Positions 51,830 through 61,220 of a stretch of 64,000 nt of DNA are shown here, piece after piece (position 1 is the first letter of the stretch; every line of letters begins with the position of its first letter). The notes beneath the pieces were generated by a model. It made no database searches. It was not told the origin of the DNA and saw only the letters and a list, made by a program, of their open reading frames with translations. Origin of the DNA: Bradyrhizobium sp. NFR13 (GTDB lineage Bacteria > Pseudomonadota > Alphaproteobacteria > Rhizobiales > Xanthobacteraceae). The stretch is from positions 186,001-250,000 of the forward strand of contig NZ_FOTP01000004.1 in NCBI RefSeq assembly GCF_900114605.1. Reading direction: 5' to 3'. The translations under genes and the position numbers were made by a program.

Positions 51830-54800
51830 GTGTCGATCTTCGTCGCACTGAACCACGTCACCCATTACAAATATGATCGGCCGATCACGCTGGGGCCGCA
51901 GACCATCCGGCTGCGACCCGCGCCGCATGCGCGCACGCCAATCCTGAGCTATTCGCTGAAGGTCACGCCGACCAATCACTTCGTGAACTGGCAGCAGGAT
52001 CCGCAGGGCAACTGGCTGGCGCGCTTCGTCTTTCCGGAACCGGCCAACGAATTGAAGATCGAGGTCGACTTCACCGCCGAGATGACGGTGATCAATCCGT
52101 TCGACTTCTTCGTCGAGCCTTATGCCGAGACATTTCCCTTCGCCTATACCGACGACCTGAAGAGCGAACTCGCGCCCTATATGGCGACGACGGAGCCGGG
52201 TCCGCGCTTCACGGCCTATATGGCGGAGATCGCGAAGGAAGCGCCGAACACGGTGAACTTCCTCGTCGACCTCAATGCGCGCCTGCGCGAGAAGGTCAAC
52301 TACATCATCCGCATGGAGCCCGGCGTGCAGTCTCCGGAAGAGACGCTGCTGTCCGGCGCTGGGTCGTGCCGCGACAGCGCGTGGCTCCTGATCGAGACGC
52401 TGCGCCATCTCGGTCTCGCCGCGCGTTTCGTCTCCGGCTATCTCATCCAGTTGCGGCCCGACATCGATCCGATCGAAGGACCGCCCGAGGTCGAAGCTGA
52501 CTTCACGGATCTGCACGCCTGGGCCGAAGTCTATATCCCCGGCGCCGGCTGGGTCGGCTTCGATGCGACATCGGGCATGCTGACGGGCGAGGGACATGTC
52601 CCCGTCGCAGCGACGCCGCATTTTCGGTCGGCCGCGCCGATCTCGGGCATGGCGGGTTTCGCCGAAGTCGAGTTCGCGTTCGCGATGGGCGTCAAACGCA
52701 TTCGCGAGGCGCCGCGGATCACCAAGCCGTTTTCGGATGAATCCTGGGCCAGGCTCGATGCGCTCGGCGAAAAGGTCGATGCCGATCTCAAAGCGCAGGA
52801 CGTGCGCCTGACCATGGGCGGCGAGCCGACATTCGTGTCCGTCGACGATATGGAATCGCCGGAGTGGAATACGGCCGCTGTCGGTCCGACCAAGCGCGGT
52901 CTTGGCGACGATCTGATCCGCCGGTTGAGGACGCGCTTCGCGCCGGGCGGCTTGCTGCATTACGGCCAAGGCAAATGGTATCCCGGCGAAAGCCTGCCGC
53001 GCTGGGCGTTCGGCCTGTACTGGCGCAAGGACGGCGTGCCGATCTGGAAAAACGATGCACTGATCGCGAGGATCGAGGGCCCGCGCACCGCCGATATCAA
53101 GCAGGCAGAACGTTTTGCGACGAGCACGGCAAGCAAGCTCGGCGTCGCTCCCGAATATATCCTGCCGGCTTTCGAAGACCCGACCTATTGGGAGCAGAAA
53201 GAATCGAGCCTGCCGAATAATGTCGTGCCCGGCGATTCCAAACTGCCGGATCCCGAAGAGCGCGCGCGGATGGCGCGGGTGTTCGAACACGGGCTGGATG
53301 TACCGAAGGGATTCGTGCTGCCGATCCAACGCTGGAATGCCGAGGCCGGCAAATCGGCTGCGCGCTGGCGTTCTGAGCGCTGGCAACTTCGTCGTGGCAA
53401 CCTGTTCCTGACCCCCGGCGATTCACCGCTCGGCCTGCGATTGCCGATCGCATCGCTGCCCTACATTCCCGAAGAGGACTACCCCTTCATCGTGGAGCAG
53501 GACCCGATGGAGCCGCGAGACGCTCTACCGGTGTTCGATGCGACGGCTGCGGCGGAAAGCGCGCCGGCTGCGCAATATGTCCAGCAGCAGCAGATCCGTT
53601 CCGGCGGCGTCCGCACGGCGATGTCGATCGAAATTCGCGACGGCATTCTCTGTGCGTTCATGCCGCCGGTCGAGAAGCTGGAAGACTATCTCGAACTTGT
53701 AACGGCGCTCGAGGCCACTGCCGAAGAGATGCAGATGCAGGTTCATGTCGAAGGTTATCCGCCGCCGTTCGATCCGCGCGTCGAGGTGATCAAGGTAACG
53801 CCCGATCCCGGCGTGCTGGAGATCAATATCCACCCCGCCTCGAGCTGGCGCGAGGCGGTCGACACCACGATGCATCTCTATGAAGAGGCCGCGAAGACAC
53901 GGCTCGGCGCCAACAAGTTTCTGCTCGACGGTCGCCACACCGGCACCGGCGGCGGCAACCATGTCGTTGTCGGCGGTTCGTCGCCGCAGGATTCGCCGTT
54001 CCTCCGCAGGCCGGATTTGCTCAAGAGCCTCGTGCTCTACTGGCAGCGGCATCCGTCGCTGTCCTATCTGTTCTCCGGCATGTTCATCGGCCCGACCAGT
54101 CAGGCGCCGCGCATTGACGAAGCGCGGCACGACAGCCTGTACGAGCTCGAGATCGCACTGGCGCAGGTGCCCAAACCTGGTGGCGAGATTCCGTTGTGGC
54201 TGGTGGACCGGCTGTTCCGGCACATCCTCGTCGACATCACCGGCAATACCCATCGCGCCGAAATCTGCATCGACAAGCTCTACTCGCCTGACGGTCCGAC
54301 GGGGCGTCTCGGCCTCGTCGAATTCCGCGCGCTCGAAATGCCGCCGGACCCGCGCATGTCGCTGGCGCAGCAGCTTCTGATCCGCGCGCTGATCGCAAAA
54401 ATGTGGCGCGCGCCGCAGGATGGCACATTCGTGCGCTGGGGCACCACGCTGCATGATCGTTTCATGCTGCCGCACTTCCTCTGGGAGGATTTCCAGGAGG
54501 TGCTCAATGAGCTCGGCCAGTCCGGCTACGAATTCTCCAGGGAATGGTTCGAGGCGCAGCTTGAATTCCGCTTTCCCGTATTCGGCCACGTGACCTATGG
54601 CGGCGTGACGCTGGAAGTGCGTCAGGCGCTGGAGCCCTGGCACGTGCTGGGTGAGGAAAGCTCAGGCGGCGGTACCGTCCGCTACGTCGATTCGTCGGTG
54701 GAGCGGCTGCAGTTGAAGGCCAACGGCTTCACGCCAGGCCGGCATATCATTACCTGCAATGGCCGCGCGCTGCCGATGACCGAAACCGGCCGGGCCGGCG

Positions 54801-55120
54801 AAGTGGTCGCGGGCGTCCGCTTCAAGGCCTGGCAGCCAGCTTCCGGCCTGCATCCGACCATTCCGGTCCATGCGCCGCTGACCTTCGACATTTATGACAG
54901 CTGGAATCGGCGGTCACTTGGCGGTTGCGTCTATCATGTGGCGCATCCCGGAGGACGCAATTACGACACCAAACCGGTCAACTCCTACGAGGCGGAGGCG
55001 AGGCGGCTGGCCCGCTTCGAGGAGATTGGCCATACCCCCGGTGAAATCGCCCCGCCAAGGGCAGAACGCACACTTGAATTTCCATTGACCCTCGACTTGC
55101 GAGCGCCTCTCCTGCATTGA
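51830..55120 (+). CDS. Transglutaminase-like protease fused to DUF2126 amidoligase-like domain
   Basis: 1096 residues from a GTG at 51830. Residues 1-85 are a transglutaminase N-terminal beta domain ([20 protein letters not shown]). A transglutaminase/papain-like core follows with the triad Cys180 ([12 protein letters not shown]), His229 ([12 protein letters not shown]) and Asp245 (GFDATSG). From about 290 on is DUF2126 ([37 protein letters not shown]). Its [20 protein letters not shown] loop near 700 recalls glutamine-synthetase-fold ATP sites, and the family is a predicted amidoligase. No signal peptide. The next gene starts 31 bases downstream. Product and substrate unknown; the protein could both cleave and form peptide-like bonds. 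Confidence 0.92.
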
Positions 55121-55151
55121 GAATGCAGGCAGTTTGGGCTGGAGAGTCGGA

Positions 55152-57659
55152 ATGACGGGACAGGCCGGTCAGGGGAAAAAGCCCCGTCCGGGACATCGTA
55201 AAGTCGCGCAATGGACCCGCGACTACGAGCGGCTGCCCGGAATTTCCGACGAATTTATCGCCCAGGACGGCACGCCGCGGGAGGTCTGGACCCGGTTCTT
55301 CGAGGCCTTCGGCGGCCTGGCGCCAGCCGAAATCGAACGCCGCTTCGGCTCCGCTGACCGTCATCTCCGGGAAGCCGGCGTCACCTACCGTGCGCCCGGG
55401 GAGATCGCCGACCGGATCTGGCCGCTCAGCCATGTACCGCTGCTGATCGACGAGTCCGAATGGCAGCAGATTTCGGCAGCGGTGACGCAGCGCGCGGGGC
55501 TTCTGGAGAAGATTCTCGGTGATCTCTATGGCGATGCCTGTCTCATCGCATCCGGCGCACTCCCGGCGGCGGCGATTGCCGGCAGTTCGGAATATCTGCG
55601 GGCGATGCGCGGTGTGAAACCGCCCGGTGGCCGCTACCTCAATGTCTATGCGGCAGACCTTGGCCGCGGCCCCGATGGCCGCTGGTGGGTGCTCGGTGAT
55701 CGCACGCAGGCGCCGTCCGGCATGGGCTATGCGCTGGAAAACCGTCTGGTGCTGTCGCGCGCTTTCACGGATCTCTATAAGTCGATGAATGTCGAGCGCG
55801 TCGCGCCGTTCTTCGAAGCGTTTCGTGACAGTCTGCGTGCCTCGGCCGATCGCGATGAGCCGCGCGTTGGTCTGCTGTCACCGGGTCCGTTCAGCGAAAC
55901 CTATTTCGAACACGCGACGCTGGCGCGCTATCTCGGTTTCCTGCTGGTGGAAGGCGATGACCTCGCCGTGTCCGGCGACCGCGTGCATATCCGCACCGTC
56001 GCTGGCCTGAAGCGTCTCGACGTGCTGCTGCGTCGCGTGGATGCCAATTCGCTCGATCCACTTGAGCTCGACGCGTCGTCGCAACTCGGTGTGCCCGGAC
56101 TGATCGACGTCGTCAGAAAGAATGGCGTCGTCGTCGCCAACATGCCGGGCTCCGGTGTGATGGAAGCGCGCGCACTCCTCGGATTTCTCCCAAGCCTCAG
56201 TCAGAAGCTGCTCGGCGAACCACTCAAGATGCCGCATATCGCCACCTGGTGGTGCGGCCAGAAATCGGCGCGCGAGGAAGTGCTGGCGCGGCTCGATGAC
56301 TTCGCCATCGAAGGCGCTTATGGCGGCGCGGTTCCGGGTTTCCCGGGATACTCGCCGGTGCTGCCGTCGCAGCTCTCGCCTGATGAACGCGAGCGTCTGA
56401 AGGCGGCGATTTCCAATCGCGGCGTTGACTATGTCGGGCAGGAGCTGGTGCAGCTCTCGACCACGCCGGTCTGGGACAATGGCCGGCTCGCGCCGCGTCC
56501 GTTCGTGCTGCGCGTGTTCGCGGCAGGGACACCGGACGGCTGGACCATCATGCCCGGTGGCTTCTGCCGGATTGCCGATCAGCCCGATGCGCGGGCGGTG
56601 TCGATGGGCGCCGGCGCCCGCGCCGCTGACGTCTGGGTCGTCGCGGACAAGGCGGTCCCGGCCTCGACGCTGCTGCCGGCCGTCGACAACGTCCGTATCC
56701 GCCGTATCGCTGGCTGGGTGCCGAGTCGGGCCGCCGACAATCTGTTCTGGCTCGGGCGTTATCTCGAACGCGCCGAGTCGACGTTGCGTCTGATCCGCGC
56801 GCTCAGTGTGCCGCAGCGCGATCCCGGCAAGGGCGGTGCGACTGCGCTGCAATCGATCGAGCGCATCCACCGCATGCTGATGACCTGGGGCGCAACGTCG
56901 CTGACGTCGCGGTCGCAGCCGGCGAAGGTTGCCGCGCAGGCCTTGCAGAGCGAGCAGCAGTTCGGCTCAGCGCTATCGCTGGTGCGCTCTGCATTGCGGA
57001 CCGCAACTTCGCTGCGTGAACGCCTGTCGCCGGACGCCTGGCAGGTCATCACCGAAATGGCTGAACGGCTCGCGCATGAAGTCGAAGACGACGATGATGT
57101 CGTCAGTGCGGCCGAGCTGACCTTGCAGGAATTGGCGAGTTTCGCCGGCCTCGCGCAGGAGAACATGAACCGCGCTGCTGGCTGGCGTTTCCTCGAAATG
57201 GGACGCCGTGCCGAACGCGCGATCAACACCACGCGCTTTGCGCGGCAATTCGCGTGTGACGAGGCGACGAGCGACGACCTCGATATTCTGCTGACATTGG
57301 TGGATTGCCAGATCACCTATCGCTCGCGTTATCTGGTTGGCCCGCTATTGGCGCCGGTGCGCGATCTCGTGGTGCTCGATCCCTATAACCCGCGCTCGGT
57401 GGCATTCCAGGTTTCGGCACTGAACGATCACATCGCGAGCCTGCCGGCGCTGAAGGAAAACGGCCTGATGGAACGGCCGCAGCGGCTGGCCGTGGCGCTG
57501 CGCTCTTCGCTCGTCACTGGCGAGGCATCCGAGATCCACACAAAGTCGCTGTTTGCGCTGGAACAGGATCTGCTCACGCTCGCGGATTCCATCGGACTGC
57601 ATTACTTCCCGCACGGTGCCAGCGCATCGCGCCCCGAAAAGCTGACGGGGCTGGCGTGA
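55152..57659 (+). CDS. Circularly permuted ATP-grasp ligase fused to alpha-E domain
   Basis: 835 residues from the ATG at 55152 after GGAGAG; a TTG at 55134 is also in frame. Residues about 25-490 are a circularly permuted ATP-grasp domain (DUF404/DUF407): VTYRAPGEIADRIWPLSHVP, MRGVKPPGGRYLNVYAADLG, WWVLGDRTQAPSGMGYALEN, LLSPGPFSETYFEHATLARYL. Residues about 517-820 are the helical alpha-E domain (RAADNLFWLGRYLERAESTL, NMNRAAGWRFLEMGRRAERA). In many genomes these are separate neighbouring genes; here they are one chain. The ligase is predicted to join a carboxylate to an amine with ATP. The stop overlaps the next start. Confidence 0.93.
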   Translation: MTGQAGQGKKPRPGHRKVAQWTRDYERLPGISDEFIAQDGTPREVWTRFFEAFGGLAPAEIERRFGSADRHLREAGVTYRAPGEIADRIWPLSHVPLLIDESEWQQISAAVTQRAGLLEKILGDLYGDACLIASGALPAAAIAGSSEYLRAMRGVKPPGGRYLNVYAADLGRGPDGRWWVLGDRTQAPSGMGYALENRLVLSRAFTDLYKSMNVERVAPFFEAFRDSLRASADRDEPRVGLLSPGPFSETYFEHATLARYLGFLLVEGDDLAVSGDRVHIRTVAGLKRLDVLLRRVDANSLDPLELDASSQLGVPGLIDVVRKNGVVVANMPGSGVMEARALLGFLPSLSQKLLGEPLKMPHIATWWCGQKSAREEVLARLDDFAIEGAYGGAVPGFPGYSPVLPSQLSPDERERLKAAISNRGVDYVGQELVQLSTTPVWDNGRLAPRPFVLRVFAAGTPDGWTIMPGGFCRIADQPDARAVSMGAGARAADVWVVADKAVPASTLLPAVDNVRIRRIAGWVPSRAADNLFWLGRYLERAESTLRLIRALSVPQRDPGKGGATALQSIERIHRMLMTWGATSLTSRSQPAKVAAQALQSEQQFGSALSLVRSALRTATSLRERLSPDAWQVITEMAERLAHEVEDDDDVVSAAELTLQELASFAGLAQENMNRAAGWRFLEMGRRAERAINTTRFARQFACDEATSDDLDILLTLVDCQITYRSRYLVGPLLAPVRDLVVLDPYNPRSVAFQVSALNDHIASLPALKENGLMERPQRLAVALRSSLVTGEASEIHTKSLFALEQDLLTLADSIGLHYFPHGASASRPEKLTGLA

Positions 57660-58534
57660 TCTACGAAATCCGCCATGTCACGACCTATAGCTATGAAAGC
57701 CCGGTGAGCTATGCGCGCTGCTCGCTGCGCCTGCAGCCCAATAGCAGCGCCGGTCAGCAACTGGTCTCGCACAGCGTCGATATCAAACCGCTGCCGGCAG
57801 CCCGCGCCATGCGGACGGATTTCTTTGGCACGCCGACGGAAAGCGTGCTGATCGAAACCCCGCATCGGGTGCTGCGGATCGATAGCCGGTCGCGCGTCTA
57901 TGTCGAACGGTTCGCGCCCGGTCGTGGCGATGACAGTCCCGCCTGGGAAAGCGTCCGCGAGGCATCGTTCGATTCAAACGACCTCAGCGGTGCGTCACCG
58001 ATCGGCTACGTCTTCGCCAGTCCGCTGGTGCCGATCATCGATGCCGTCACGGACTATGCGGCAGTGAGCTTCACCGAGGGGCGCGGCATTCTCGCCGGCG
58101 CCGTCGATCTGATGCATCGCATCCGTACCGAGTTCAAATACGATCCCAAGGCCACGGTGATCTCGACGCCGTTGCAGGAGGTGCTGGATAAGCGCCACGG
58201 CGTCTGTCAGGATTTTGCCCATATCATGATTGCGGGCATGCGCGGCCTCGGCCTGCCTGCGGCCTATGTCAGCGGCTATCTGCGCACCATTCCACCTGAA
58301 GGCAAGGAGCGCCTGCAGGGCGCCGATGCGACCCATGCCTGGGTGTCGGTCTGGTGCGGCGAAGAACTCGGCTGGATCGGCTTCGATCCGACCAACGACA
58401 TCCTGGTCGAGAACGATCATATCGTGCTGGCGATCGGCCGCGATTTCTCCGACGTATCGCCGGTGGATGGCGTGATTGTCGGCGCGCGCAAGCAGAAGCT
58501 CGCCGTTGCCGTCGATGTGCTGTTGCTGGAATGA
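57656..58534 (+). CDS. Transglutaminase-like cysteine peptidase
   Basis: 292 residues from a GTG at 57656 that overlaps the upstream stop by four bases. N-terminal beta domain YEIRHVTTYSYESPVSYARC, then the catalytic set Cys184 (RHGVCQDFAHIMIAGM), His227 (DATHAWVSVWCG) and Asp244 (GFDPTNDI). Bacterial relatives occur with alpha-E and circularly permuted ATP-grasp proteins. It is distinct from the transglutaminase part of the 1096-residue protein upstream. It may hydrolyse or transfer the product of the ligases. No signal peptide, so it is cytosolic. Confidence 0.93.
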   Translation: MIYEIRHVTTYSYESPVSYARCSLRLQPNSSAGQQLVSHSVDIKPLPAARAMRTDFFGTPTESVLIETPHRVLRIDSRSRVYVERFAPGRGDDSPAWESVREASFDSNDLSGASPIGYVFASPLVPIIDAVTDYAAVSFTEGRGILAGAVDLMHRIRTEFKYDPKATVISTPLQEVLDKRHGVCQDFAHIMIAGMRGLGLPAAYVSGYLRTIPPEGKERLQGADATHAWVSVWCGEELGWIGFDPTNDILVENDHIVLAIGRDFSDVSPVDGVIVGARKQKLAVAVDVLLLE

Positions 58535-59730
58535 CCATCGTCCGTCGCGCGCATAACACGGCCGACGTCATCGTTCTCGGTGCCGGTGCAGCTGGCCTGA
58601 TGTGCGCCGGCATTGCGGGGCAGCGCGGCCGTTCGGTGATGGTCCTGGAGCAGGCGCGGTCTCCCGGTGAGAAGATCCGCATCTCCGGTGGCGGCCGCTG
58701 CAATTTCACCAACCTGCATACGACACCGGCGAATTTCCTGTCGCAGAACCCGCAATTCTGCAAATCCGCGCTGAAGGGCTTCACCCAGCAGGACTTCATC
58801 GCGCTCGTCGAGAAATATCGCATCGCCTATCACGAGAAGACGCGCGGGCAGCTATTCTGCGATGGCTCGTCCCAGCAGATCATCGACTTGCTGCTGGAGG
58901 AAAATCGCCGGGGCGATGCGCAGATGCGGCTCGGTGTCGGTATTCTCGGCGTGACGAAGACCGAGAGTGGTTTTGTGGTCGCCACCGATCAGGGCGAGTA
59001 TCGCAGTCAATCACTGGTCGTTGCCACCGGCGGGCCTTCGATCCCGAAAATGGGCGCCAGTGCTTTCGGCTACAAACTGGCACAGCAGTTCGGGCTCAAG
59101 ATGATCGCGCCGCGCGCCGCGCTGGTGCCGCTGACGTTCGATGTCGCAGCGCTCGCGCAATTCAAGGATCTGGCAGGCGTTGCCGTCGACGCCGTGGTCA
59201 GCGTCGGCAAGATCAAATTCGACGAAGCGCTGTTGTTTACCCACCGTGGTCTCAGCGGCCCGGCGATCCTGCAGATTTCGTCCTATTGGCATGAAGGTCT
59301 GGATGTCGTCATCGACATGGCGCCGACGCGGGATGTGCTCGCGGTCTTGAAGGACGCGCGCCGCGAACGCCCGCGACAGGAACTCGCGACTGTGCTCGGC
59401 GATCTCCTGCCCAAGCGACTGGCACAAATGATCGCCGACAAGATCGGTGGCCCGCCGCGGCTGGCGGATTTCTCGGACAAGCTTCTGGCTTCTGTGGCGG
59501 CAGCAGTGAAGGAGTGGCGCGTGCGGCCGAACGGCACCGAGGGCTATCGCACGGCCGAGGTGACGCTCGGAGGCGTCGACACCACTGAACTATCGTCCAA
59601 GACATTCGAGGCGACATCGGTGCCAAGGCTGTATTTCATCGGCGAGGTTGTCGATGTCACGGGCCATCTTGGCGGCTTCAATTTTCAGTGGGCCTGGTCG
59701 TCCGGCGTTGCCGCGGGGCGGCATATCTGA
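58531..59730 (+). CDS. HI0933/BaiN-type FAD-dependent oxidoreductase
   Basis: 399 residues from the ATG at 58531, overlapping the upstream stop in ATGA; the frame is open to 58354. FAD dinucleotide motif VIVLGAGAAGLMCAGIAGQR, SPGEKIRISGGGRCNFTN, and C-terminal GEVVDVTGHLGGFNFQWAWS identify the YhiN/HI0933/BaiN family. Some members reduce bile-acid or steroid double bonds; many have unknown function. Coupling to the transglutaminase suggests a shared product, although this family is widespread and the link may be incidental. Confidence 0.92.
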   Translation: MTIVRRAHNTADVIVLGAGAAGLMCAGIAGQRGRSVMVLEQARSPGEKIRISGGGRCNFTNLHTTPANFLSQNPQFCKSALKGFTQQDFIALVEKYRIAYHEKTRGQLFCDGSSQQIIDLLLEENRRGDAQMRLGVGILGVTKTESGFVVATDQGEYRSQSLVVATGGPSIPKMGASAFGYKLAQQFGLKMIAPRAALVPLTFDVAALAQFKDLAGVAVDAVVSVGKIKFDEALLFTHRGLSGPAILQISSYWHEGLDVVIDMAPTRDVLAVLKDARRERPRQELATVLGDLLPKRLAQMIADKIGGPPRLADFSDKLLASVAAAVKEWRVRPNGTEGYRTAEVTLGGVDTTELSSKTFEATSVPRLYFIGEVVDVTGHLGGFNFQWAWSSGVAAGRHI

Positions 59731-59873: not shown

Positions 59874-61220
59874 ATGAGTACTGCCTATTCGATTTCAGAA
59901 CGTCTGAGGTTCAACCGTATCGATCAAGACGCCATCACCGCGCTTCGGGAGGCCAAGCCGTTCGTGATGGACCAGTTACCGGGAATCCTCGATCGGTTTT
60001 ACGATCATGTTGGGGCATTCCCTGAGACGGCCGCGCTGTTCAAGACGCGTGAGCATATGGTCCACGCCCGGAAGATGCAGATCGCCCATTGGTCGGTCAT
60101 TCTGGATGGCCGTTTCGACGACACCTATCAGGCGTCGGTGACGCGGATTGGCCAGGTTCACAACAAGCTCGGACTGGAGCCCCGGTGGTATATCGGCGGC
60201 TACAATGCGCTGGTATCCGGCCTTGTCGAAGCGGTCGCCCGCATGCCCATGGGCAGGTTCAGCTTTGGTGCCATGAAGAAGCGGGCTGCGATGCAAGCCG
60301 CGATCATCAAGGCGGCCATGCTCGATATGGATCTGGCCATCTCCGTCTATGCCGAAGAGGGACGTCGCGATCGCCGTGCCGTGCTCGATCGCCTCGCCGA
60401 CGACTTCGAGAAAATGGTCGGCAGCGTGGTGGGGATCGTCGGCTCCGCGTCCACCGAATTGCAATGCGCTGCCCAGAATATGAAGGCGTCGGCGGAGACA
60501 TCGATGTCACAGTCCAGTGTGGTCGAGGCAGCATCACGAGACGCAACGTCGGGCATTCAGGCCGTGGCCGTCGCGACCGAACAGCTCACGAGCTCCATCG
60601 GGGAGATATCGCGACAGGTGAATGACTCGGCGCGTATCGCCGGTGAAGCCGTGCGGGACGCCGATGAAACCAGCGGAAAAATGCATCGTCTCTCGGCAGC
60701 CGCGCAGAAAATCGGAGCGGTGGTCGAGCTGATCAACAATATCGCGGCTCAGACCAATCTGCTGGCCCTTAATGCGACCATCGAGGCTGCGCGGGCCGGC
60801 GAGGCCGGCCGGGGATTTGCCGTCGTGGCCCAGGAGGTGAAATCGCTCGCCGAACAAACCGCCAAGGCGACTGCCGAGATTGCCGATCAGGTCGGGGACA
60901 TCCAGAGCTCGACATCGGAATCGGTCGCGGCCATCGGCACGATCACCACGGTCATCAAGTCTCTCAGCGAAATCTCGGCCGCAATTTCGGCCGCGGTCGA
61001 GCAGCAGGGCGCAGCAACCAACGAAATCTCGCGCAGCGTACGGGACGCAGCGAAGGGTACGAGCGAGGTGTCGTCCAATATCTCGGCGATCACGCGCCTT
61101 GCGGGCGAGACCGGAGCTGCGTCCGCGGAGGTTCTAGCATCCGCATCGGAGCTGTCGCAGCAGTCGGAGAAACTGCGCGTCGAGGTCGATAAATTTCTAG
61201 CGACCGTCAAGGCTGCGTAG
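59874..61220 (+). CDS. Globin-coupled soluble methyl-accepting chemotaxis protein
   Basis: 448 residues, no membrane helix. Residues about 10-165 form a protoglobin domain like Hem[22 protein letters not shown], with proximal His96 in [20 protein letters not shown]. Residues about 190-445 are an MCP signalling domain with the hairpin tip [40 protein letters not shown] and long heptad-rich helices. It should sense O2 (or CO/NO) through haem and signal to CheA. There is no classical C-terminal CheR pentapeptide. No che genes are adjacent. A FixK-like site precedes it. Confidence 0.93.

Follow-up and report, generated by a model that had tools for sequence, protein, structure and literature searches.

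A three-gene locus of Bradyrhizobium sp. NFR13, at positions 51830–58534 on the + strand of the 64,000-nt stretch analysed here (the window; G000:C11:186001-250000, where G000 is the organism's own genome), encodes a transglutaminase-like (TG) domain fused to DUF2126, a circularly permuted (CP) ATP-grasp fused to an alpha-E domain, and a small TG-like protein. Because this ATP-grasp is dead as judged by its sequence, and because DUF2126 was never found in a genome without a strong CP-ATP-grasp match, we favour, with a probability of about one half, a reading in which the locus is not self-contained but serves the nitrogen-regulated ATP-grasp/alpha-E/TG (Anbu) peptide system as an accessory arm powered by DUF2126. 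The original prediction had described a compact, self-sufficient peptide-ligase/transglutaminase system acting on a small peptide or protein tag; its domains, catalytic triads and gene linkage stood, whereas ATP-grasp activity, self-containment and a locally encoded tag did not. The window is of Tardiphaga-like kinship, its best matches being 94%, 87% and 85% identical.

The ATP-grasp of the fusion protein

The second gene (55134–57659, +; 841 amino acids (aa) from a TTG) matches CP_ATPgrasp_2 (461 bits) and Alpha-E (226 bits) in Pfam. Its ATP-grasp domain has the ATP-grasp fold; the nearest folds include Methylobacillus flagellatus Mfla_0391 (PDB 3n6x, a putative glutathionylspermidine synthase) and, after it, glutathione and glutathionylspermidine synthetases. 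When the protein is aligned with single, unfused ATP-grasps and with 3n6x, G188-D189-R190 (55695–55703, +) replaces E-D-N, and residues 390–408 (56301–56357, +) take the place of the nucleotide loop VVK..(S/A)GGYG, with no GGYG among them. The window protein thus differs from 3n6x, which keeps EDN and GGYG, in having lost both motifs and in carrying alpha-E. The E-x-N residues we take to be magnesium ligands, as they are in glutathione and glutathionylspermidine synthetases; neither these Mg-ATP ligands nor the glycine loop expected for ATP-grasp catalysis can be recognised in the alignment of the window protein.

This loss characterizes the whole fused class. Among 149 ATP-grasps (124 fused, 25 single), EDN.R.PSG or GGYG was present in none of the fused proteins, and both were present in 23 of the single ones, the two exceptions (L026, L044) reading as one split and one contig-cut piece of fused genes. 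Checked column by column, the 124 fused proteins keep the E in 2 cases, the N in none and the loop Lys in 17. A wider comparison of 43 single with 88 fused proteins (thinned from 125) gave 131 columns conserved at ≥95% in the single class, of which 54 (~40%) are kept (≥85%) in the fused one; among those lost are E211, N213, R215, D370, D371, K372, K419, G425, G426, G428, D479, N511 and G517 (residue numbers follow the single ATP-grasp reading frame L009:9854-11434, counted from its TTG). The single type retains its motifs in other phyla as well (Hymenobacter, Deinococcus and Tsukamurella; 3/3 examined). A quick tree built from 75 thinned rows (42 fused, 33 single) places the two classes on two sides of one branch (SH-like approximate likelihood-ratio test, SH-aLRT, 100); the program warned of long branches, among them four fused rows that are possibly misplaced. 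Ratios of nonsynonymous to synonymous substitution (dN/dS; Nei-Gojobori script, five pairs) are low in the dead domain (0.037–0.173), as in alpha-E (0.027–0.164) and DUF2126 (0.093–0.19), and the fused protein is therefore kept rather than decaying. On this evidence, we regard the ATP-grasp, which had been predicted to be a working ligase, as a conserved and maintained pseudoenzyme that keeps its fold and has lost its nucleotide and metal motifs. Separately, an extra CP-ATP-grasp of genome G069 (L168:9224-10672) has EDN and lacks the GGYG loop, which may represent a second, independent decay.

An intact twin operon and its distribution

A second, intact set of related genes lies ~180 kb from the window locus, in an operon at C11:422-426 kb (L009) that comprises a single ATP-grasp at L009:9854-11272 with both EDN and GGYG, alpha-E, TG and Anbu. 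The absence of Anbu from the window flanks, as originally noted, was borne out, and the genome search suggested at the time located the Anbu gene in this operon (G000:C11:422083-422826). The genome holds two alpha-E genes and two proteasome-family genes, one of each in this operon. A further transglutaminase-like gene (L010:5359-6276, on G000:C6) has no ATP-grasp match within its 14-kb stretch.

We examined co-occurrence in 397 Pseudomonadota genomes from 231 genera, tallied by genome and by genus, the genomes not being independent. DUF2126 was found in 129 genomes, Anbu in 161 and CP-ATP-grasp in 233 (232 strong, the weak match of G296 being left out); by genus, DUF2126 occurs in 73/231 and CP-ATP-grasp in 135/231. 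All 129 DUF2126 genomes contain a strong CP-ATP-grasp, "strong" denoting a score class rather than motifs read genome by genome, and 123 of them have at least two matches. This inclusion does not support the expected self-containment of the locus. By comparison, the 80 genomes with Anbu and no DUF2126 mostly have one CP-ATP-grasp (76; none in 3, namely G094, G248 and G339, and two in 1), and 26 genomes have CP-ATP-grasp with neither DUF2126 nor Anbu. The association of DUF2126 with Anbu is weaker (both, 81; DUF2126 alone, 48; Anbu alone, 80; neither, 188). Every one of the 48 DUF2126 genomes without Anbu nevertheless has a strong CP-ATP-grasp (437–520 bits); 20 single genes read from 19 of them carry both motifs in 19 cases, the exception being L168, and adjoin alpha-E in 18/20 and TG in 15/20. 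A second match occurs in only 12 of the 268 genomes lacking DUF2126, where in 12/12 it is a fused frame lacking both GGYG and EDN (L215 keeps the E of EDN alone), next to a small TG gene in 11/12.

The two modules can also lie side by side. Sixty regions, picked for family spread out of the 129 DUF2126 genomes, contained the fused gene in 52 cases, the single ATP-grasp in 21, both in 18 (within one 20-kb stretch) and Anbu in 5. In Burkholderia cenocepacia CMCC(B)23006, one row runs from a single ATP-grasp carrying EDN and GGYG through alpha-E, TG and TG-DUF2126 to a GGYG-less ATP-grasp/alpha-E fusion and a last TG. One cluster on an IncFII plasmid (90,733 bp) from Enterobacter roggenkampii combines alpha-E, TG-DUF2126 and TG with two ATP-grasps, one intact and the other fused (GDR, no GGYG); this five-gene cluster (L174) has insertion sequences in its flanks, together with a gene for arsenate reductase. 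In Rhodoblastus sp. 17X3 (L058), a 15-kb stretch takes in the DUF2126 module and, on the opposite strand, a single ATP-grasp/alpha-E/TG triad. Synechococcus elongatus, too, matches the DUF2126, CP-ATP-grasp, alpha-E and TG_N families.

Peptidase_Mx (PF15887 with a zinc ribbon), a zinc peptidase, is a candidate for a further partner of the DUF2126 system. Leaving out G174, G185, G233 and G365, whose matches are weak or broken, 80 genomes have a strong match, 77 of them with CP-ATP-grasp and 63 with DUF2126; put the other way, it occurs in 63/129 DUF2126 genomes versus 17/268 others. Of 175 loci with module genes, 18 contain Peptidase_Mx, ≤310 bases from a module gene in 15/18, and it is also present in Caballeronia and Hymenobacter loci. 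The HExxH motif is found in 17/18 locus copies and, as HEVGH, in the copy of the own genome (G000:C7:673655-674362; L219:5623-6606), which lies on a different contig from the locus.

Regulation, precedents and competing readings

Sigma54-like sites were sought with a simple -24/-12 score (cut-off 18.5 of 22.2; control, 60 dinucleotide shuffles). They precede single-ATP-grasp operons in 23/43 loci and 14/25 families, with a shuffle maximum of 5 for either; the L009 Anbu operon has the site TGGCCCGCCCCTTGCT at L009:11344-11329, ~57 bases upstream of the ATG. These sites agree in part with published induction under nitrogen limitation, as far as excerpts of the sources go. In Pseudomonas putida on nitrate, transcripts of PP_2685 (Anbu) and PP_2688 (CP-ATP-grasp) rise by log2 4.44 and 3.99, and the response of the PP_2688 promoter to depletion of nitrogen is 3.7-fold (excerpts of PMC8050072). 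Induction of Anbu in nitrogen-limited P. putida is likewise cited in a passage of PMC5666114. I35_5080-5083 of B. cenocepacia H111 are sigma54- and NtrC-dependent (excerpt of PMC5491218); judging by their domain names, we take these genes to encode ATP-grasp, alpha-E, TG and TG-DUF2126. In marine metagenomes, domains of the ATP-grasp/alpha-E/TG system go with urea metabolism (PMC3597751, in part).

The locus shows the linkage of CP-ATP-grasp, alpha-E and TG-like domains seen in Anbu-type systems, which supports its predicted membership in this peptide synthesis or modification neighbourhood. Homologues of its ATP-grasp, alpha-E and TG-like domains are found in the Anbu operons of Yersinia bercovieri and Pseudomonas and in that of the own genome; the window locus differs from them in having a degenerate ATP-grasp joined to alpha-E, an added TG-DUF2126 and no Anbu in the operon. 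Excerpts of PMC6376114 report that the Y. bercovieri ATP-grasp releases phosphate from ATP, that Anbu showed no amidase activity on the substrates tested and that it did not associate stably with the operon's other proteins. Tagging hypotheses for the operon appear in the same excerpts, and a peptide-synthesis hypothesis in those of PMC5666114. The neighbourhood itself is therefore known; what would be new, as far as the sequences indicate, is the fused pseudoenzyme, the universal presence of a strong CP-ATP-grasp with DUF2126 in our sample, and the likely metallopeptidase partner. We found no prior description of the dead ATP-grasp or of the Peptidase_Mx link in a literature search based on partial texts, the main source, Iyer et al. 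2009, lying outside that search, and priority is unsure.

For the accessory arm that we favour, a conditional scheme can be proposed. When nitrogen is short, the single ATP-grasp/alpha-E pair would make or prime an amide-linked, peptide-like intermediate. The dead ATP-grasp/alpha-E protein may then act as a scaffold binding this intermediate or the active ATP-grasp, and the putatively glutamine synthetase (GS)-like DUF2126 domain would be the sole ATP-dependent ligase of the window locus. The two papain-fold TG-like enzymes might transfer or cut amide bonds, and peptidases (Anbu and, in many genomes, Peptidase_Mx) could trim or recycle the product. The function we infer is the making or recycling, under nitrogen limitation, of an amide-linked product.

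Several observations weigh against this reading. The window operon has no convincing sigma54 site (background score 17.2 of 22.2), and DUF2126 operons in general are little above the shuffles (11/61 loci against a mean of 4.0 and maximum of 9; 5/34 families against 3.6 and 8). The fragment upstream of P. putida PP_2685 was unresponsive to nitrogen (excerpt of PMC8050072), and PMC5666114, in the passage available, also cites expression data unchanged under various conditions. DUF2126 and the fused gene are not strictly tied, because 6/129 DUF2126 genomes have no second CP-ATP-grasp and the fused gene is present without DUF2126 in 12 genomes; a fused copy in DUF2126 genomes is the usual case and not a strict one. 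Genus tallies apart, the co-occurrence counts are uncorrected for phylogeny. The Lys of the nucleotide site, retained in the 17 fused proteins mentioned above, makes weak nucleotide binding possible. Finally, a profile–profile comparison of DUF2126 with the genome's own glutamine synthetases returned nothing (probability 0.1–0.2%), and searching the PDB by profile returned TG matches only. DUF2126 has a moderate fold match to glutamine synthetase (PDB 9n4x, 8v22, 8v1y, 5dm3), from which it differs in being a much larger domain without profile-level sequence similarity. As the profile searches were negative, the GS-like assignment draws on the Pfam name, on this moderate fold match and on a single passage of PMC2588565, a Pup ligase paper that places DUF2126-type proteins in the carboxylate-amine ligase superfamily. 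By description in the same passage, Mycobacterium tuberculosis Rv2566 has the architecture of the window's first protein, a TG-like domain joined to a domain of that superfamily.

A bolder version, which we hold only tentatively, treats the active and dead ATP-grasps as an obligate pair split over two loci, with the dead fusion a dedicated scaffold in an assembly line for an amide product during nitrogen starvation. The scaffold would couple the free-standing ATP-grasp/alpha-E to the GS-like ligase and the two thiol transferases, and Anbu or Peptidase_Mx would be alternative trimming peptidases. If the ATP-grasp of the DUF2126 arm is dead and relies on a living twin elsewhere, studies of a single operon would miss half of the machinery. 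The proteins to combine can be named (single ATP-grasp plus alpha-E, the ATP-grasp/alpha-E fusion, TG-DUF2126, the small TG, and Anbu or Peptidase_Mx), as can the condition, nitrogen limitation, which makes the product of the Anbu/alpha-E/ATP-grasp system a directly testable question.

Protein tagging in the manner of Pup, with ligases attaching a small peptide that TG-like enzymes and peptidases remove, seems unlikely to us. It fits the tagging hypotheses and the superfamily placement cited above, but no recurring small reading frame emerged near the modules among 3665 candidates from 87 loci (widest cluster, 4 loci; low-complexity filter on), in a search that was local, so that a tag could be encoded elsewhere; the passages of PMC2588565 report no Pup-like reading frame either. 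It is also rather doubtful that the fused ATP-grasp is alive with changed chemistry, either through another nucleotide or metal mode or as a transferase. Strong purifying selection would suit such an activity, as would positions conserved in the fused class only (Arg for N213 of the single type in 77/88, and Gly for Ser in 88/88), but the glycine loop has no conserved replacement and varies widely in letters and length. That two functionally unrelated modules coincide through shared ancestry and genome content we consider improbable: the genomes are not independent and the counts uncorrected, but the inclusion is complete (129/129) across 73 genera, and both modules share one 20-kb stretch in 18/60 regions and one plasmid cluster. 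Least probable is the self-contained three-gene system, with ATP-grasp and DUF2126 both working ligases and TG-like enzymes trimming, for which the domains, gene packing, linkage and retained alpha-E motifs speak, but which conflicts with the motif loss in 124/124 fused ATP-grasps and with the strong CP-ATP-grasp accompanying every DUF2126.

The three genes and their linkage

Open reading frames and Pfam matches agree with the gene and domain content originally proposed. The first gene (51830–55120, +; 1096 aa, GTG start) matches Bact_transglu_N, Transglut_core and DUF2126. Its transglutaminase-like, papain-fold domain (residues 1–290; 51830–52699, +) has the triad C180/H229/D245, kept in 140/140 homologues, and the DUF2126 (PF09899) putative amidoligase domain (residues 278–1091; 52661–55102, +) is full-length (profile 3–826 of 826; 1334 bits against a curated cut-off of 27). 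The glycine loop that had been noted, GTGGGNH (residues 705–711; 53942–53962, +), is conserved, with G705, G708, G709 and H711 in 140/140 homologues and G707 in 138/140; invariant DUF2126 residues are E332, E641, E664, H711, E831 and R833. In the fusion protein, the helical alpha-E domain (residues 528–834; 56715–57635, +) bears the ER pairs E545-R546 and E694-R695, present in 123, 125, 122 and 125 of 125 homologues, respectively. The true start of the fused gene is probably ATG 55152, where relatives begin, which leaves 31 bases after the first gene (13 from the TTG). The small TG-like gene (57656–58534, +; 292 aa; Bact_transglu_N and Transglut_core) overlaps the fused gene by 4 bases; its triad, C184/H227/D244, is likewise intact (C184 and H227 in 128/128 homologues, D244 in 127/128).

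Linkage was assessed in the window, 80 relatives (80 retained out of 594) and the 60 regions. The 124 loci that contain both TG-DUF2126 and the fused gene have them on the same strand in 120 cases, with the fused gene directly downstream in 111, a linkage far above chance that bears out the expected conservation in relatives. Of the remaining 13 loci, we read seven as rearranged (L058, L117-L120, L129, L132), two as having the gene further downstream (L116, L150) and four as over-long reading-frame calls (L051, L055, L093, L131).

Beyond the module, an HI0933-like flavoprotein gene (58528–59730) and the small TG gene share 7 bases at the end of the latter; the two lie within 300 bp of each other in only 6/127 loci. 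Next in the window (59874–61220) is a gene that joins a protoglobin to a methyl-accepting chemotaxis signalling domain.

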